Below are positions 6,541 to 34,929 of a stretch of 64,000 nucleotides of DNA, one piece after another (position 1 is the first letter of the stretch; each line of letters opens with the position of its first letter). The DNA is taken from positions 496,001 to 560,000 of the forward strand of contig NZ_UZAC03000001.1 of NCBI RefSeq assembly GCF_900538055.1, given 5' to 3'. Source of the DNA: Pasteuria penetrans (GTDB lineage: Bacteria > Bacillota > Bacilli > Thermoactinomycetales > Thermoactinomycetaceae). The notes beneath the pieces were generated by a model, which was not told the origin of the DNA, did no database searches, and saw only the letters and a list, made by a program, of their open reading frames with translations. The position numbers and the translations under genes were made by a program.

Positions 6541-9369
6541 CTATATCGTACGCGTTGTCCTCATGCCGGTTCCACCGCCTCTCCATCTCTTTTGATCAAT
6601 ACCCTTTATCTTGTATCCAATTCTTCTTCCCTTAGCATGAACCTTGGTTCTACTACGAACACTATCACAAACTCCCGACAATCTTTTCCCAACCCCGCTA
6701 CTGCAAAGACCCAATGATGGGGAGTTACGCACCCCTGATTCACTCCCCCTGCTACCACTAGGATAGGGGGATAATGAATACCCCTCCAGCTTTTGTATCT
6801 GCTGCGTATGTTGAGTTTGCTGTATCTTTTGTATTTTCTGTATCTGATGTATTTCATGGATCTGCTGCGCGTGTTGGGTCTGCATCTGTTGAATTTGTAT
6901 CTGTTGTATTTGCTGCATTTGTTGCATTCGCTCTATTTGCATATGCATAGGGGGGATATGAATTTGCTGTATCTGCTGTGGGAGAATCATAGGGTTCATA
7001 TGGGGGGGGACAACCTGTGGAGGAACTATGGATTGCATGTGGGGAGGGACAACCTGTGGAGGAACTATGGATTGCATGTGGGGAGGGACAACCTGTAGAG
7101 GAACCATGGATTGCATGTGGAGGGGGACAATCTGCGGAGGAACCATGGATTGCATGTGGGGAGGGACAACTTGTGGAGGAACCATGAATTGCATGTGGGG
7201 AGGGACAACTTGTGGAGGAACCATGGATTGCATGTGGGGAGGGACAACCTGCGGAGGAATCATGGATTGCATGTGGGGGGGGACAACTTGTGGAGGAACC
7301 ATGGATTGCATCTGGTGGGAAACAACCTGTGGAGGAATCATGGATTGCATGTGGGGGGGGACAACTTGTGGAGGAACCATGGATTGCATCTGGTGGGAAA
7401 CAACCTGTGGAGGAACCATGGATCGCATCCGATAGGGAGGAACTTGTGGGGGAACTACGGATTGTACCTGGGGGGAAATTTGATAGACTGCTGGGGGTTG
7501 CGCTGGGTGTGCAACTCTAGGACGAGGGAGGAATAGGGATCCTATTTGTGGCGGCGTGATCTCGGATGATAACGGGGGTGGGGACTTCATTTGGGATGAT
7601 TTTCCCTTCGCAGATAAGGGGAATGAAGGGTCCTTTACTTCTGCATTCCACTCGGGAGGGGGGGGATGATGGATTGAGGGACGGCCTTGGTATGGTTCGT
7701 TGTCTGCTTTGGTACCAAAAGGGTGTTGCTCCCAAAACGTAACGGTCTTACGGTAGTGAGATGGATGATCAGTTGGGGGAATGGTTGTATGAGTTGGTGG
7801 CATATGATTTGTGGTATGCCCTGCTGATGGGGCTAGCTTACCTGTTGTGCCCAACTGCTGTACTCCTCCCGACGGGGACGGGGGCAACACCTGTTGATTG
7901 GGTCCTGGATCCTGTGCCTTCTTTGGTGGTGGGGATAATCGTTGCAATTTCTGGTTCGTTTGTTGCAATGTTGGACCTGTCTTGTTGGTAGGGGAATGGG
8001 AGGACCCTTGCCGTTGTCCACGATTTGCATTGTGATCGGAAGAGGGTCGTTCTTCCCACGTTGTGGTCCCACGATTGAGGGATGGGGGATTATTGGCCGT
8101 AGAGGCTGATGACATAGTAGAACCTGCGGGCTTTCCTCCTAATGTTCCATGCACCGTCCTACTCGTTGCATCTAACTTTTGTACTTCCTCCGATGGGGAC
8201 GAATGCAACCCCTGCTGATTGGGTCCTGGATTCTGTGTCCCCTCTGGTGGTGGGGAAAGAAATAACCCCCGTAATCTCTGGTTCACTTGTTGGAGTAATG
8301 GATGATCCGTTTTGTTGCTAGGGGAACGGGAGGACCCTTGCCGTTGTCCACGATCCGTATTGTGACCAGAAGTGGGCTGTTCTTCCCATGTTACAGCTCC
8401 ACGATTGGGGGATGGGGGATCGACCGTAGGGGCTGATGACATATTGTGAACCGTGGGTCCCCCTTCTGATGTTCCATGCACCGTCCTACTCGTTGCATCG
8501 AACCGCTCTACTTCTTTCGATGGGGACGAATGCAACTCCTGCTCATTGGGTCCTCCCGAATCCTGTGTCCCTCCCGGTAGTGAAGGGAGGGGTAACCTCT
8601 GTAATTCCTGGTTTGCTCGTTGTAACGATGGATCGGATCGAGGAGGTTGTTGATCTGTTTGAACTACCGCTGCGTAAGTGGGTATTGTGTGGTGGGCACC
8701 GGGAGAATTCCTGGATTGGGAATGTGGGGAGTTTTCCATTGTGATCCTATTCGCCTCTACAATGGTAGGGGGTGAATGCTGTTGTTTCCGTGGTGATTGC
8801 GGCTGCAGAGACCCCTGGGTTTTAGGGGGGAATGATGGTGGTTCCTCCTTTGTATGGTTCGTGCGGGAAATGGATAGGTTCCCTCTTTCCTGTTTCCTCC
8901 CCTGAATTTCTTGCTGTAATTCCTGACTCCCCAGGTTCGATGGGGGGTCCCCCTTTTTCCCAGTAGGAGGGGGTGTGTGTTTACTATTCTCATCATTATC
9001 CAAAGGGAGGGGCCTGGATTTTCCTACTACCTGCTTTCCCCTTTGATCCGTCCATAGTCCCTGATTTTCCTGTACCGACGGTGGCAATGTCTCCTCCGCG
9101 ATGGTGTATAGGGATCGTTTGGTTGCCGTATTGTTGAGGGGGGCTCTATGGGATTTTTCCCCTGCCTGTTCTCCATCTGCATGCTTTTCCCTTTTGTTTT
9201 GTTGCAGTCCCCGACTCCCTCGTACCCATGATGATTCCCCTCCCCCCATGGATTGCTCATTTGCTATATTTTCGCGGGGTGGGGTATTGGTTTTTTCCTT
9301 TACCTCTTGATCCTTTCGTGATCCTTGTTTTTTTCGTACAGATGGTTCCTCTTTTCTGGCAATGGACAA
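6541..9369 (-). CDS. Large Pro/Gln-rich repeat protein; downstream part of a gene split at G11
   Basis: A 942-residue ORF with no own good start (TTG at 9369, no ribosome site) and no signal peptide. Its frame is open upstream to the G11 run at 9423-9433. Deleting one G there would join it to the ORF ending at 9413 as a single 1398-codon gene (6541-10738). Content, N to C: low-complexity Lys/Glu/Gln/Pro/Ser text; three diverged copies of a roughly 125-residue module with RTVHGT and RGQRQGSS marks; a Pro-rich segment; twelve 13-residue units of the type VPPQVVPPHMQSM; a Gln/Ile/His-rich stretch (QQMQQIQQIQ); and a basic tail. Probably a surface or secreted structural protein; function unknown. 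No enzyme domain is visible. Confidence 0.75.
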   Translation of the reverse strand: MSIARKEEPSVRKKQGSRKDQEVKEKTNTPPRENIANEQSMGGGESSWVRGSRGLQQNKREKHADGEQAGEKSHRAPLNNTATKRSLYTIAEETLPPSVQENQGLWTDQRGKQVVGKSRPLPLDNDENSKHTPPPTGKKGDPPSNLGSQELQQEIQGRKQERGNLSISRTNHTKEEPPSFPPKTQGSLQPQSPRKQQHSPPTIVEANRITMENSPHSQSRNSPGAHHTIPTYAAVVQTDQQPPRSDPSLQRANQELQRLPLPSLPGGTQDSGGPNEQELHSSPSKEVERFDATSRTVHGTSEGGPTVHNMSSAPTVDPPSPNRGAVTWEEQPTSGHNTDRGQRQGSSRSPSNKTDHPLLQQVNQRLRGLFLSPPPEGTQNPGPNQQGLHSSPSEEVQKLDATSRTVHGTLGGKPAGSTMSSASTANNPPSLNRGTTTWEERPSSDHNANRGQRQGSSHSPTNKTGPTLQQTNQKLQRLSPPPKKAQDPGPNQQVLPPSPSGGVQQLGTTGKLAPSAGHTTNHMPPTHTTIPPTDHPSHYRKTVTFWEQHPFGTKADNEPYQGRPSIHHPPPPEWNAEVKDPSFPLSAKGKSSQMKSPPPLSSEITPPQIGSLFLPRPRVAHPAQPPAVYQISPQVQSVVPPQVPPYRMRSMVPPQVVSHQMQSMVPPQVVPPHMQSMIPPQVVSHQMQSMVPPQVVPPHMQSMIPPQVVPPHMQSMVPPQVVPPHMQFMVPPQVVPPHMQSMVPPQIVPLHMQSMVPLQVVPPHMQSIVPPQVVPPHMQSIVPPQVVPPHMNPMILPQQIQQIHIPPMHMQIERMQQMQQIQQIQIQQMQTQHAQQIHEIHQIQKIQKIQQTQHTQQIQKLEGYSLSPYPSGSRGSESGVRNSPSLGLCSSGVGKRLSGVCDSVRSRTKVHAKGRRIGYKIKGIDQKRWRGGGTGMRTTRTI
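6985..7452 (-). repeat. Twelve tandem 39-bp coding repeats (13-residue unit)
   Basis: In-frame tandem units encoding variants of [VI]PPQVVPPHMQSM; some read VVSHQMQSM. Neighbouring units are nearly identical at DNA level, which implies recent expansion and likely length variation between strains. Confidence 0.9.
7850..8640 (-). repeat. Diverged long coding repeats, about 125 residues each
   Basis: Three related segments of the repeat protein share, in order, a Q-rich LQ-x2-NQ-x-L start, SPS-EEV, DATSRTVHGT, MSSA, NRG, TWEE and RGQRQGSS. Boundaries are approximate. The copies are more diverged than the 39-bp units, so this duplication is older. Confidence 0.7.
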
Positions 9370-9412
9370 GGATCGCTTAGCCTCAGCACTGCTAGGGGGG
9401 AGGGCATTAGTT

Positions 9413-10738
9413 TTATTTTTTGCCCCCCCCCCCTTCTTGGCTTTGCCGTGATCCTTCCCCCCTTTTTCCTATCTCAGGGGTGGGGGATGAACCATCATTC
9501 TCCACCCTACTGGATTGGGAAGGCCCTGGCTGTACTTTTTCTATCCCCTTTGCCCAGTATTGTTGCAAGGATTCTGGTAGCACCTTTATTTCCCGTTTCA
9601 AAATATGAAGTTCCTCTGGAGTGAAATACTTTATCGAATGCTGTACTTTTTCTATCTCCTTCGCCCAATACCGTTGCAGAGGTTCCGGTAGCACCTTTAT
9701 TTCCTGTTTTAAAATATGAAGTTCCTCTGGAGTGAAATACCTTATGGAATTCCGTAACATATTATGTGTCATTCCAGGGGGGAGATGGGATATATCCTGT
9801 TCCATTCGTAATCGTACCTCTATCCCCTTTGTCCAATACCATTGCAGGGGTTCCGGTAACACCTTTATTTCCTGTGTCAAAATATGAAGCTCTTCTATTG
9901 TGAAATACTTTATCAAATTTTGCAACATATTATGTGCCGTTTCAGGGGGGAGACTAGACAAACTTTGTATGGCTTGTAATCGCATTTCCGGATTTTTCCG
10001 TATCTCCTTCCCATATCGTTCCTGCGGCGATGGTACTTGGGTCGATTCTGACTCTGCAGAGGGGGACATTCTTTGTTCCTCCCCCCCATAGCCAACAATA
10101 GGCGAATGTACCATCGGGTTTTCGCTCAGGGCTTTTTCCAGTACCCCCTTGAGTAATTTCCTCTTCTGTTCCTCGGACAATTGAGGTGGCAATTCTCCAG
10201 GTTCCAATTTTAGGTTTCGTATTTGTTGAGGTGTTAGGTTCTGTACCAACTCCCACATTTTTTTTCGCTGAGCTTGTGGCATTTGCTCCTGCACTTTTTC
10301 CAGGTACTTCTGTTGCCCTCGTTCCCATTTGGGTAGATCTAGTTTTTGTTCGAAGGTGAGATGATGGCTCTGCCAGGGGGCTATCCATCCCAGTTGCTCG
10401 AAACGCAACTGCTGTATTAGGTCGGGTCGTACTATCTGCTGTACTACCTTAGGGGATGATAGATATTGTATCTGATGTTTCCCTAGGCTATTGATTTCCT
10501 CAGGTAGCATCCACTCCTGCTGTTGCTGTGTCAGATTCTCTATCCGCGTCCCTAGCTGTTGTATCTGTTGCGTGTAATATACCCCTTCCACCGAGGAGGT
10601 CCCCTGTTCTTGTATATCCCCGGACGTCTGCTGTTGTTGCGATGGTTTTCCAGTAGCAAAGGTATGTGGGGTGATGCTGGGACTCCCTCCCTGTGAAAAC
10701 ACTAACATGGATAGAATATATTTACTTATTTTATTCAT
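9413..10738 (-). CDS. Secreted repeat protein; upstream part of a gene split at G11
   Basis: A 441-residue ORF from ATG 10738, with AGGGAAGGG just upstream. The N-terminus MNKISKYILSMLVFSQGG looks like a weak signal peptide with possible cleavage after TFA near 28. The rest is Gln-rich and then carries three copies of a motif of the type YFTPEELHILKQEIKVLPEP followed by LQ-x-YWAKGIE, spaced 67 and 45 residues. The ORF ends GGGGKK at the G11 run 9423-9433; with ten G it would read on into the 942-residue ORF. So 6541-10738 is best seen as one gene that is phase-variable, recently broken, or misread at the homopolymer. Function unknown. Confidence 0.75.
   Translation of the reverse strand: MNKISKYILSMLVFSQGGSPSITPHTFATGKPSQQQQTSGDIQEQGTSSVEGVYYTQQIQQLGTRIENLTQQQQEWMLPEEINSLGKHQIQYLSSPKVVQQIVRPDLIQQLRFEQLGWIAPWQSHHLTFEQKLDLPKWERGQQKYLEKVQEQMPQAQRKKMWELVQNLTPQQIRNLKLEPGELPPQLSEEQKRKLLKGVLEKALSENPMVHSPIVGYGGEEQRMSPSAESESTQVPSPQERYGKEIRKNPEMRLQAIQSLSSLPPETAHNMLQNLIKYFTIEELHILTQEIKVLPEPLQWYWTKGIEVRLRMEQDISHLPPGMTHNMLRNSIRYFTPEELHILKQEIKVLPEPLQRYWAKEIEKVQHSIKYFTPEELHILKREIKVLPESLQQYWAKGIEKVQPGPSQSSRVENDGSSPTPEIGKRGEGSRQSQEGGGGKK
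9423..9433 (-). repeat. G11 homopolymer at the ORF junction
   Basis: Eleven consecutive C on the plus strand (G on the coding strand) directly before the stop of the upstream ORF. The span 6541-10738 is 4198 bases; minus one base is 4197 = 3 x 1399, and the frames then join with no stop between them. Confidence 0.9.
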
Positions 10739-11220
10739 GTTTTCCCTTCCCTAAAATATTTTTATATATTTTAATTTTATGTTTAACCAAAATATTTTAA
10801 ATAAAATATTTATAATATTAATAAATTACTAAATAAAAACAATTTCTTTTATATAATGATTCAGGATTTTGATCATGAACCGGATCCGGGTTATCTGTGG
10901 GAACTCCTATGAATCAAAAATTACACAAATGTAGTATTTTTGGAAAAAGTTTTGAACCAACCGTTCTATTCAGGAGGATATGGGGCTGAGGCCGACAACG
11001 AGTCAAAAATTTAGGTCCATACCCCACTTTGTGCTGTAAGGTCCAAGAGAGGGCGGTTTGTGGTCTCCAAAAATTCTTTTGTCCATGCCTTTTCTATGAA
11101 CCATCGTAACGATGGTTCATAGACCATTTATAGATATTTATAAGTTTATTGTTATTTATATTCACAAAGGGTACGAAAATCGTTACAGTGGTGCTTTTCC
11201 ATGGAATCGGGGGATTCCTG
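10739..11220. other. AT-rich intergenic region with a perfect palindrome
   Basis: Non-coding. The promoter of the minus-strand gene starting at 10738 must lie in the AT-rich part 10740-10870. A perfect 14-bp inverted repeat with a TAA loop (arms TCTATGAACCATCG and its complement) lies at 11093-11123, about 100 bases past the stop of the HtrA-like gene. Neither strand has a T-run after it, so a protein-binding site or processing hairpin is as likely as a terminator. Confidence 0.6.
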
Positions 11221-14200
11221 CTAGGGGGATTCTGTGAGGGTTTCAGTTGAACTATTGGGTTCACTGGACGGTTGTGATTCTTGCTTCCCCTTCAACAACC
11301 ACCCCTTTTCTATGAACGATCCGATTAGCTTCTTATACCTTTGGTATGCCTCTTGATATGCTTGTTCTCTATCACGATCCTCATCCCCATCCTCATCCGT
11401 GTTTGTTGGGTTTCTCCCGGATTGTTCATGATTCCACATCGTGTATGCCGCTTTTTGAAATTCCAACAAATCGTTTGATTCCTGATTGGTTATTGGTTTT
11501 CCCATGTCGTCCCTCTTGTCCACAAATCGCTCGATGGCCATATGAAGATGATCTATACCCACACTGTCATGGTTCTTTACCCATGAATCCATATCGGGGA
11601 GCTGGAGAAAAAGATGGTCTGGTTTGTCCCTATGCGGCACATCATCTGGCTGGGATCTCATCCATCTTATTCTTTTCGATAATGATTCCTTATAAATATC
11701 ATAAGGGGGCATATTGTGCGGTTCAGTCCATATAGGTACTATTTTTTCCAATCCGCGCACACCCTTTTTCTCGAAGGTTTGGGCTATTCTTTCTAGATCG
11801 CCTGGTGGCAACTTTATTTCTTTTTCCTTCCCCTTGTAGTGATAGACAAGTTTGTGATCACCCGACCTCATTGTTTTGCTTGCCATGTTTCCTAATGCAT
11901 TGTATAGATCGTTCTTGGTAGAGTGGGGCCCTAATACTTCTAGTTTGGGAACTTTACCCGATCTTTTTTTTGTGGGTAATCCAAAGATAACGTAGTGGTT
12001 TTTTACTATACTTTCCCTGTTCCTTACCAAATCATCTCTTGCTATTTGTTTTGTGTCTATCATACTGTGCATCCCTATAGCGGAGGGTAGATCCCCTGAA
12101 TACATCATCATTTCCTTAATTTTATAAGCAAATATATTATCTAATAATAATTCACTGTGATCCATTTGGTTGTTTTTATGATCCCCGTACTTTTCCCTCC
12201 CATCCATGAATTCGATAAGAGAGTCGAATAAATCCCCACGTATTTTTTCCTGTGCCAATGGATGATTCTGATACGTATTATTCTGATGACTAAGTTGGTA
12301 CAAGAATTGGGCCGGATTATGGATCTCCTCAGTTGAATCCTTGTCTTGATCCATCGTCCCAGGAATATCTTCCAGAAGGACTTCCTTTTCTACCTCCGTT
12401 CTATTCCCTTGCGGATAGTATTCAATGGTAAGTGGTTTGCCCGGTTCTCCATATTGGTTCATGAGTGTATTGTAGCTTTGTAAGTTATTGATTCTAATTT
12501 TATTATTATCTATTTTAATATGGGTAAAGATGTCACCTTCGTGGAATCCACTCCGATCCGCTACCCCTCCAGGTTCAATAGCAGTAATCACCATACCCTG
12601 TCTAATTTCATCGGGAACGTTGAAACTGGATCTTAGTTCCGGGGTGATCGTTGCCCCCAGAGCACCCAAGTTGCCCCTGCGGAACCGACCATGCTTTATC
12701 AGTTGCTCCGCAACCCGCTTTGCCAGATTGGAGGGTATGGCGAATCCCGTTCCCCTTCCCATGCTGCTCTCATTGATCCCTACTACCTCTGCCCTCATGT
12801 TGAATAATGGTCCACCGCTGTTGCCTTTTTCTATATGTGCATCGGTTTGAATACAACTGCCAATGCTAAAACATGGTAATTCCCATCCTGATAATCCCGG
12901 TGTGATGGCAGAGACGGAACTCATGGGGAAATCTGATCCTTTTTTGGAATAGCGGGTTACGATCCCTGCGGAATGAGATTGACCAATTCCCATGGGGCTA
13001 CCGCTGGCTACCACCGTCTCCCCCTTGCGTACCGAATCGGAGCTGGCGAACGTAGCCGGCCGCACTCCTTGAAGGTCGTGGGACCTTATCTTCACAACGG
13101 ATAGATCCGTTCCAGGGTCGGAGCCTACAAATTTGGCTTGTATTGAGGGGAGATTTTCTTCTTCCCCCTTGGCGGTTAATATATCAATATCCCCTTGGCC
13201 GTTTTCTACCACATGGTGATTGGTAAGGATCCAAGTTTCACCATTTTCCTCCTTGATAACCACACCCGAACCATAGATCATTTCCCTTTCCTCCTGGATG
13301 AGATTTTTGGGAAAGGGAAATGGGCGAACGCCTGGAACACGATTCACTGCGATTGCTACCGTGGATTGTTCGGCCTTTTGGATTACCCATGGTATAGTTC
13401 CATGTAAAACAGTTGTTTCTGATGCAGGGGATGGTTTTTCCACAGATTGCTCATCCCTCCCTGACTCACCCCCCGATGTCTCTACCATTGTGGGGACGGA
13501 TTGTTGTCCATTGGAATTCGAGTTCACCTGTTCTGTTTTTTTCTCTTTTTTCCTATCTATGGTAGATGGATCTTCTACTGTTTCAGTAGATCCTCGGTTT
13601 CCCTCGGACCTTTCCCCGGGCGTTTCCTGTTCCATCGTGGTGGGTAGGGGTTTGTTGGAATCTTCTCCCGTTTTCCCCATTTTTTCCGCTGGTTTGGGAT
13701 CCATGGGGGGTTGGTTTTCCACTGTTTCCCTATCTATAGTGGACGGATCTCCTGCTGTTTCAGTGGATCCTCGGTTTCCCTCGGATTTACCCCCGGGTGT
13801 TTTCCGTTCCGTCGTGGTGGGTAGGGGTTTGTTGGAATTTTCCCCTGTTTTCCCTATTTTTTCCGCTGGTTTGGGATCCATGGGGGGTTGGTTTTCCACT
13901 GTTTCCCTATCTATAGTGGACGGATCTTCTGCTGTTTCAGTGGATCCTCGGTTTCCCTCGGATTTACCCCCGGGTGTTTTCCGTTCCGTCGTGGTGGGTA
14001 GGGGTTTGTTGGAATTTTCCCCCGTTTTCCCCATTTTTTCCGCTGGTTTGGGATCCATGGGGGGTTGGTTTTCCACTGTTTTCCTATCCATAGTGGATGG
14101 ATCTTCTGCTGTTTCAGTGGATCCTCGGTTTCCCTCGGATTTACCCCCGGGTGTTTTCCGTTTCGTCGTGGTGGGTAGGGGTTTGTTGGAATTTTCCACT

Positions 14201-14478
14201 GTTTTCCCCATTTTTTCCGCTGGTTCGCGATCCATGGGGGGGTGGTTTTCCACGGTTTCTCTCTTCCCCATTCCCGTGGATTCCTTTGTTGCTAGATTGG
14301 GGAGATATTTTCCTGACGTTTCCAACGAAATGTCTCCTCCTCCGGTCCCCGCTTCTTGTTCTGCCTTTATCATTTGAGGGGAGAAACCAGATAGGAGAAG
14401 GCCCACAGTAAGATAACCCCACAGCGGTAGGGGTTTATGGTGGGCTAGGAAACACCTCTTTTTGTTTAATTTCTTCAT
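11221..14478 (-). CDS. Secreted HtrA/DegP-like serine protease with N-terminal repeats
   Basis: Extracytoplasmic trypsin-fold protease of the HtrA family. From ATG 14478 (AGGGG upstream; the GTG at 14511 has no ribosome site) it has 1085 residues, far longer than the usual 400-450. Order: basic start and hydrophobic segment (signal peptide or anchor, about 15-33); four tandem 59-residue Pro/Lys/Glu-rich repeats (about 74-309); protease domain with His in TNHHVV (about 422), Asp in DPGTDLSVV (about 458) and Ser in GNSGGP (about 554); one PDZ domain (about 600-700); then some 375 charged residues that I do not recognise. The triad is complete. It lies upstream of the split repeat gene on the same strand and may act on it. 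Confidence 0.9.
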   Translation of the reverse strand: MKKLNKKRCFLAHHKPLPLWGYLTVGLLLSGFSPQMIKAEQEAGTGGGDISLETSGKYLPNLATKESTGMGKRETVENHPPMDREPAEKMGKTVENSNKPLPTTTKRKTPGGKSEGNRGSTETAEDPSTMDRKTVENQPPMDPKPAEKMGKTGENSNKPLPTTTERKTPGGKSEGNRGSTETAEDPSTIDRETVENQPPMDPKPAEKIGKTGENSNKPLPTTTERKTPGGKSEGNRGSTETAGDPSTIDRETVENQPPMDPKPAEKMGKTGEDSNKPLPTTMEQETPGERSEGNRGSTETVEDPSTIDRKKEKKTEQVNSNSNGQQSVPTMVETSGGESGRDEQSVEKPSPASETTVLHGTIPWVIQKAEQSTVAIAVNRVPGVRPFPFPKNLIQEEREMIYGSGVVIKEENGETWILTNHHVVENGQGDIDILTAKGEEENLPSIQAKFVGSDPGTDLSVVKIRSHDLQGVRPATFASSDSVRKGETVVASGSPMGIGQSHSAGIVTRYSKKGSDFPMSSVSAITPGLSGWELPCFSIGSCIQTDAHIEKGNSGGPLFNMRAEVVGINESSMGRGTGFAIPSNLAKRVAEQLIKHGRFRRGNLGALGATITPELRSSFNVPDEIRQGMVITAIEPGGVADRSGFHEGDIFTHIKIDNNKIRINNLQSYNTLMNQYGEPGKPLTIEYYPQGNRTEVEKEVLLEDIPGTMDQDKDSTEEIHNPAQFLYQLSHQNNTYQNHPLAQEKIRGDLFDSLIEFMDGREKYGDHKNNQMDHSELLLDNIFAYKIKEMMMYSGDLPSAIGMHSMIDTKQIARDDLVRNRESIVKNHYVIFGLPTKKRSGKVPKLEVLGPHSTKNDLYNALGNMASKTMRSGDHKLVYHYKGKEKEIKLPPGDLERIAQTFEKKGVRGLEKIVPIWTEPHNMPPYDIYKESLSKRIRWMRSQPDDVPHRDKPDHLFLQLPDMDSWVKNHDSVGIDHLHMAIERFVDKRDDMGKPITNQESNDLLEFQKAAYTMWNHEQSGRNPTNTDEDGDEDRDREQAYQEAYQRYKKLIGSFIEKGWLLKGKQESQPSSEPNSSTETLTESP
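13554..14259 (-). repeat. Four tandem 177-bp coding repeats in the HtrA-like gene
   Basis: Units begin at ETVENxPPMD with an exact 59-codon spacing (original-frame residues 85, 144, 203, 262) and end PSTIDR. The copies are highly similar at DNA level, so in-frame copy-number change is likely. Confidence 0.9.
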
Positions 14479-14622
14479 GTAATTATCCCCTTTGCAATTA
14501 TTTTCTACCACCTATTTTCCATACGCGTGTCGACACGGTAGCAAACTTTGGCAGGGGAGTCAAGGGATGTGTAGTACTATCGCATGCGGAATAGAGGAGA
14601 TAGGGGGGGAATTTCTTTGCAA

Positions 14623-33232: not shown

Positions 33233-34514
33233 CTAAAAATCAATGGTATGGACATCGTCCATGCAACCATTCCCTTGTTCCGTGCATAAGAGGGGATGAA
33301 AGTCATAAGCTGTGGCGGGGAGAGGTTCCCCGTTCGAAATTTCGGACGTATAATCAGCAGGGATAGCAAGGAGATCTTCGACAGGCAATGGGTTGGGGTT
33401 TTCTTTTTGTTTCCCCACCCAATAGAAAGCGGTAAGCATCAATTTCTTCATCGCTACCTCAAGACCAACGAATCCACCTTTTTTGCTATTCGTTCTCTCA
33501 CGAAACAAAGCATTCAGCGATTCCGTGTAGTTCGTGGACAGTATATAGGGCAGAAGTATGGGGTTTTGGGTTATGGATGCCGCTTGTAAGCTCAGGGAGA
33601 TTTTTTTAGGACTGAACCTTTCCCATGCTTCGCATGTTGCCTTATTTCCAAACCGATACTTCTCTGCACACTCGGACCACCGTTCTAGTGCCTGTCCCGT
33701 ATCCCCAGACCGTAAGACGTAAGAAGCGTCCTTAGCCATTCCCTTCTTCATACTTTTAGGAGCTGCATTCATGATGTTACGAATCGCGTGAACGTAACAC
33801 CGTTGGTGAACCGTATGGCGAGGAAAATGCTTGCATACAACTAAGGGAAAAGCCCTATGCCCATCTGTGGTAACGATACATATATCGTTGACATTCAGGC
33901 CCCGTTCCTTTAGTTTCCCTATATGCTGATCGTAGGATTCAATATTCTCATCAGGCGAGGGGGTGATTCCTATTATATCCCGCCGTGATACCCGTGTTGA
34001 CTGCGATCGCCTTCGAAACATAACGACCCTCCTCCCGAATGGGAACAAAGAGGGTATCTATGCCTATGGCTGTATATACTGTCATGCTAAGATCCCTTTC
34101 GAAATATCGTATAGCATCGTTGTAATAGGGTTGCAGCCACTGCGAAAGCGTTTCCGGGGGCGTCCGAAGGTTGAATCCTTCCTCCAGTAGTTTACTACTA
34201 TTTCGCAAGGAGAGGCCCGGAAGATAAAGATGATAAATGAAATCTTTGAGGGTATTCTTTGCACTCTGATAACGTGGTAACGAGTACGCTGAAAATTCCC
34301 ATCTTGTCCTAGGAATCTCTAGATCTAATTCCCCAAACAGTGTGCTATATCCGCGATGATAGACCCCATTCCCCTCATCCTGGAGATGTTCCAGACGATG
34401 GAGGGTTCGAGCTACACGCATGCGTAAGTTACATAGGTCCTCGACAACAGGTTTCCAATTCTTTGGGTCGGTTAGGGAGTCTATCTCTGGTGCTACCGCG
34501 AAAAAAGGTATCAA
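33233..34514 (-). pseudogene. IS256-family (Mutator-type) transposase, one frameshift
   Basis: DDE transposase in two overlapping frames: 33951-34514 (to VSKAIAVNTGIT) and 33233-34048 (from RRDIIGITPSPDEN). The span is 1282 bases; removing one gives 427 codons, the usual length. Family marks are IPRTRW-type text, IGIDTLFVPIREEGRYVSKA, VTTDGHRAFPLVV, HQRCYVHAIRN and STNYTESLNALFRERT. The break is in the GITxGY region. IS256 elements do not need programmed frameshifting, so it is most likely dead. No terminal inverted repeats could be recognised. Confidence 0.88.
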
Positions 34515-34929
34515 ACTTATTAAAATATTTTTGTAGATTAAATGATGTGTTTAGGAAATGTTTATATTGTTAATGGATATAAAAACAGTCTGTCTGGGTA
34601 TTTCCGGCGTAAGTTCTTTGGGGTGGAAAGGTACCCCTTTCTAGGGGATTGCACCTGAAAATTTCGTGCGATCGGTTATTTTTTGTTGAACCACCGAAAT
34701 CACCGTGGAATCATAGGAACCGGTTCCTATCTCGCCCCTTTTGCGCACACTAAAGAAACCGACATGAAGTCGAATTTTATTTTTTATTTAAATATTATTA
34801 TATATTAAACTCTATGTAGTTATGGGTGATCTTATCCTTATCTTCCTGATCTTCTTTTGAAGATAACGAACGGCCTGGGAAGATCCTTTTGCCATCATGG
34901 CCCGTGCCACCCTCGTCTTACCACGCACC
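34490..34929 (-). repeat. Long dispersed repeat, copy 1 (transposase 3' part)
   Basis: Nearly colinear with 51390-51843 over about 440 bp: both start GGTGCTACCGCGAAAAAA and include ATTAAATGATGTGTTT, ATTGCACCTGAAAATTTCGT and ACCGACATGAAGTCGAATTT. It includes the end of the transposase fragment below. Confidence 0.85.

Follow-up and report, generated by a model that had tools for sequence, protein, structure and literature searches.

Between positions 6541 and 10738 of the window (the whole 64,000-nucleotide stretch of Pasteuria penetrans DNA that was analysed), two open reading frames of the minus strand meet at a run of eleven G, and we consider it fairly probable (roughly 0.6) that they form one secreted-protein gene, which appears to be split because the length of this run is wrong in the assembly. 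The repeat protein gene is real and specific to this lineage, and its product is presumably exported. It would encode a signal peptide, a Gln/Leu-rich repeat domain, a long Pro/Ser/Gln-rich region and a Gln/Met-rich tail, and in the living population its frame would most likely be continuous, like that of an intact paralogue. The incorrect run length may have arisen through base calling, through the consensus or through DNA amplification.

Structure of the locus and position of the frame break

The upstream piece extends from an ATG at 10738 to 9413, where a TAA just past the G run (9423-9433) closes it after 441 residues. An SD-like site, GGGAAGGG, can be read from the sequence at 10744-10751 of the same strand, five bases ahead of the ATG. 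Its N-terminal domain is rich in Gln and Leu and is followed by repeats that may be helical according to a low-confidence model, the single-sequence fold of this piece being poor (mean pLDDT 42.3). At the DNA level the piece has repeats of 111 and 168 bp (YFTPEELHILKQEIKVLPEPLQ.., 9529-9953, minus strand). The signal peptide is weak, with a best 12-residue hydropathy of 1.49 versus 1.91 in the paralogue. The downstream piece (9369-6541, minus strand, 942 residues) is rich in Pro, Gln and Ser, ends in a Gln/Met-rich tail and includes eleven copies of a 39-bp repeat (6997-7428, minus strand) with units like PPQVVPPHMQSM. Neither piece scores above the Pfam cut-offs.

With regard to start signals, the first-pass annotation holds in both of its parts, except that the signal peptide it gave to the upstream frame is a weak one: the upstream piece has an ATG and an SD-like site, while the downstream one begins at TTG and lacks such a site. 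This TTG, at 9369, is the first listed start of a frame of 975 open codons that extends from 9468 to its stop at 6541, and near the junction none of the possible starts of this frame was found to have an SD-like site. Between 9471 and 6543 there are no stops in the downstream frame and many in the other two frames of the minus strand.

As the two open frames overlap nowhere else, the change of frame is confined to positions 9415-9468 (minus strand). This overlap also contains a run of six G and one of six A, and its longest run is the G11. The earlier description of two minus-strand frames of 441 and 942 residues meeting at this run was confirmed by the limits of the frames and by the sequence, and so was the arithmetic that accompanied it: the region comprises 4198 bases, a multiple of three plus one. 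A run of this length is in itself within what chance would produce; the coincidence of the frame break with it is not.

An intact paralogue holds both ends within a single frame

On another contig of the same genome there is a paralogue with an uninterrupted open reading frame of 1181 residues. An alignment of 306 residues links its beginning to the upstream piece (32% identity, E 2e-27). At the other end, the alignment of its tail with that of the downstream piece reached a score of 157, as compared with a mean of 45.3 and a standard deviation of 7.6 in shuffled sequences (z 14.7; 0 of 500 shuffles reached the score). The Pro-rich stretch ahead of the tail is unconvincing, because 49 of 500 shuffles attained its score, and the whole downstream piece gave only E 0.015 against the paralogue at the protein level. 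As the paralogue carries both ends in a single frame, we conclude that the two pieces derive from one ancestral gene, which supports the original proposal of a single repeat gene with a weak signal peptide broken at the run. The alternative of two independent adjacent genes was rejected, since close to the junction no start of the downstream frame comes with an SD-like site, and since the paralogue joins both ends in frame.

The two proteins make up a family of two, with a homologous N-terminal domain and a homologous C-terminal tail, and a profile built from both found no further member in 41 other genomes of the order (42 with the genome itself). Upstream of the locus, at 11221-14511 of the window (minus strand), lies a gene for an HtrA-like protease. 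The N-terminus of this protease is hydrophobic, four repeats of 177 bp precede its trypsin-like domain, and its matches to PDZ domains are below the cut-off. Near the intact paralogue, a collagen-like open reading frame with long GVT repeats was observed (L034:13600-15057).

Other genes split at runs of at least ten G

The genome contains 25 runs of at least ten G, all of which were inspected. Six lie at gene splits, five in open genes of known families, six are uninformative and eight fall outside recognised genes. Besides the present locus, the split genes are the following. The histidyl-tRNA synthetase gene, hisS (L051:4101-5406), is split at a G10, its pieces matching positions 2-282 and then 280-405 of TIGR00442. 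There is no second HisS in the genome, where the two remaining weak matches fall in one other frame of 656 residues. The gene for ThyX, with two Thy1 domains (L046:4330-5968), is split at a G11; among 20 relatives searched, ThyX is one open frame of 499-723 residues in all 12 genomes with a match, and no ThyA was found in the present genome at E<=0.001. A class A penicillin-binding protein gene (PBP1A, L039:3844-6454) is also interrupted at a G11 (TIGR02074, 21-281 and then 276-531), as is an amino-acid permease gene (L043:3437-5306). The first piece of the permease has no match in Pfam; it corresponds to the N-terminus of frames of 610-678 residues in 7 of the 20 relatives and to the start of three paralogues of 628-640 residues. 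Finally, the gene for the succinyl-CoA ligase beta subunit, sucC (L056:4650-5886), is split at a G11 according to TIGR01016 (1-130 and then 128-385) and also to Pfam. Two further open frames (388 and 412 residues) match the C-terminal part of the sucC profile, so that the function may not hinge on the split gene alone. Separately, two short frames at G000:C1:886607-887037 match adjoining parts of the succinyl-CoA ligase beta profile and are perhaps a decayed copy.

A candidate for a seventh split, at L022, was rejected because one of the pieces matches TsaD and the other GNAT; they are therefore neighbouring genes.

The offset of the downstream frame is identical in all six splits, the present locus included (two-sided p 0.03), and corresponds to a surplus of one base, or a deficit of two, with respect to an uninterrupted frame. 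To our knowledge, no clone without histidyl-tRNA synthetase can grow. As a clone with a broken hisS would be inviable, the length of the hisS run must be either wrong in the assembly or compensated at expression, and whatever explains hisS is most simply extended to the locus described here. It is on these grounds that we infer the run lengths to have been miscounted, a reading that had originally been set down as a caveat and that the same-phase breaks in housekeeping genes make preferable to a switch.

Run length, genome background and shorter runs

The genes of known families that remain open across a run of G10-G12 are PurA, DapF, PriA, a pyridine-nucleotide-disulphide oxidoreductase and PlsC. 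The six uninformative runs stand before or after the recognised domains of open genes, namely those for an intron maturase, RsmI, DacA, an ABC permease and a LysM open reading frame (two runs), and in the eight that lie in no recognised gene the longest open frame is at most 159 codons. When the present locus is left out, ten genes of known families contain an internal run; splits were found in one of five at G10, in four of four at G11 and in none of one at G12. Fisher's test gave p 0.048 for G10 versus G11, with the intron maturase counted as intact although all its recognised domains follow the run. The breaks are thus found at the longest runs whatever the function of the gene, which is what homopolymer errors of the assembly would be expected to produce. 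The genome's longest G and C runs, a C18 directly followed by a G15, occur at L050:5022-5054 (G000:C1:2012021-2012053), where there is no long open frame; this junction is either a joining artefact or a perfect hairpin.

Shorter runs were considered in a sample of 404 kb, consisting of 17 arbitrary stretches and the window. Pairs of frames that exchange with one another as those of a split gene would were defined by at least 100 codons in both frames and an overlap of less than 250 bases. There were 84 such pairs, and seven of them had a run of at least seven in the overlap; judged by eye, only the present locus among these seven resembles one broken gene, the other six looking like neighbouring or antisense frames. 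At shorter runs, inspection of this sample by eye revealed no split housekeeping gene. In a looser scan of the same sample, in which the exchanges include ordinary neighbouring genes, 33 exchanges were located at G/C runs of five, 7 at runs of six, 6 at runs of seven and 2 at runs of eight, while 504, 122, 48 and 19 runs of these lengths, respectively, were crossed by open frames. Similarly, among the 45 runs of exactly nine G, no clear split of a single gene was seen in the 18 that were inspected, for twelve of which the view included about 1.5 kb of sequence to either side. The recognised breaks in housekeeping genes are located at the longest G runs, and essential genes are not spared.

Several transposase-like frames of the sample appear, by eye, to be broken away from long runs, so that real breaks may exist as well. 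In the window itself, two overlapping frames at 33236-34550 (minus strand) resemble by eye a broken transposase gene whose junction has no long run.

Alternative explanations

Although we favour a wrong run length in the assembly, there are results that do not fit it easily. Five known-family genes remain open across runs of G10-G12, and the undercalling that is usual in long reads does not agree with the six offsets, all of which are of the other sign. Homopolymer indels are known to fragment genes when assemblies are built from long reads (PMC12007338). The homopolymer-linked errors in that report's nanopore assemblies were deletions following runs of two to eight. As the sign of our offsets is opposite to that of these deletions, we do not take the artefact as proven. 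Among the literature matches listed for Pasteuria, nothing useful was found on homopolymers, and none dealt with multiple displacement amplification.

A first alternative, which we regard as improbable, is that the DNA does contain the breaks and that slippage of RNA polymerase or of the ribosome at long G runs yields sufficient full-length product. Such a rescue would be expected to concern genes that are essential and otherwise undecayed, and essential, otherwise undecayed genes are indeed found broken at a run. Additionally, the single phase of all six breaks is unlike the homopolymer deletions described for nanopore assemblies in PMC12007338. For insect endosymbionts there is a precedent in Blochmannia, where rescue by transcriptional slippage has been proposed for poly-A/T frameshifts in essential genes (PMC3017870). 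That precedent involves poly-A/T and not poly-G, whereas all six runs at the splits described here are G runs. MutS and MutL also speak against the proposal, since both match their entire profiles in open frames; as they are intact, unstable runs are not to be ascribed to a lack of mismatch repair. A broader form of the same idea would be a host-dependent lineage of Bacillota that carries real one-phase G-run breaks in hisS, thyX, the class A PBP gene and sucC, expresses these genes by slippage on poly-G, and doses the repeat protein as one of many genes in this manner. We see little chance of this being so.

The second alternative is the phase-variable gene, in which slipped-strand changes of the G run would switch a full-length secreted protein and the assembly would have caught the OFF state. 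Several characteristics of the locus are those expected of such a system: a homopolymer run whose length sets the frame is found within the gene, this run is a G11 inside a gene for a secreted repeat protein, and the downstream frame is long and undecayed. Moreover, host-dependent parasites are under selection on their surface proteins, which would favour a switch of this kind. By contrast, five of the six splits at runs of at least ten G affect housekeeping, metabolic or transport genes rather than the surface or antigen genes that phase variation would be expected to involve, and these breaks share one phase. The run is also located about one third into the gene, and the paralogue is unbroken.

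Nor do long G runs exceed the genome background clearly. Genome-wide there are 70 runs of at least nine G, 25 of at least ten and 11 of at least eleven, against 89.5, 27.3 and 8.3 expected by extrapolation from shorter runs in the 404-kb sample, and in the window the pattern G9 has three matches versus 4.67 in dinucleotide shuffles. The window has a GC content of about 47%; the value given for Pasteuria penetrans in PMC13233619 is 46%. In the absence of a clear excess of long G runs, nothing points to selection in their favour. Contig scans in search of a second strain gave no match for the upstream piece or for the flanks of the run, near-identical genomes being of a kind that may fall outside these scans. 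The slipped-strand ON/OFF switch proposed by the first-pass annotation is unsupported: hisS and the genes for ThyX, the PBP, the permease and sucC, with their same-phase breaks at runs of at least ten G, cannot all be contingency genes. We consider phase variation an unlikely explanation.

Lastly, a recent and real loss-of-function mutation, with the downstream part beginning to decay, could be accommodated by an intact paralogue able to assume the role of the gene, but it is most unlikely given a downstream frame of 975 codons without a stop, in a region where the two other minus-strand frames have many, and breaks of the same phase in essential genes.

Implications and comparison with known systems

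If, as we favour, the runs have been miscounted, the assembly wrongly splits at least six genes, a tRNA synthetase among them, and conclusions about phase variation or lost genes that are based on it would be false. Should the lengths be real, the genome would offer a poly-G equivalent to the slippage rescue that has been proposed for poly-A/T tracts in endosymbionts.

Poly-G contingency loci are found in Campylobacter jejuni, and the locus described here resembles them in that a coding frame contains a long run of G. The two differ in that, in the present genome, housekeeping genes are hit and long runs show no clear excess.

A second likeness is to the poly-A/T frameshifts of Blochmannia (PMC3017870), where essential genes of a host-dependent bacterium are interrupted at homopolymers but otherwise intact; the organism studied here is presumed to depend on a host as well. 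By contrast, the runs in our case are of G, in a window of about 47% GC.

The homopolymer indel errors described in PMC12007338 are similar in producing single-base frame breaks at homopolymers regardless of the role of the gene. The errors reported there for nanopore assemblies follow runs of two to eight and are deletions, whereas the phase of the breaks found here is that of an added base, and every recognised housekeeping case is located at a run of at least ten G.
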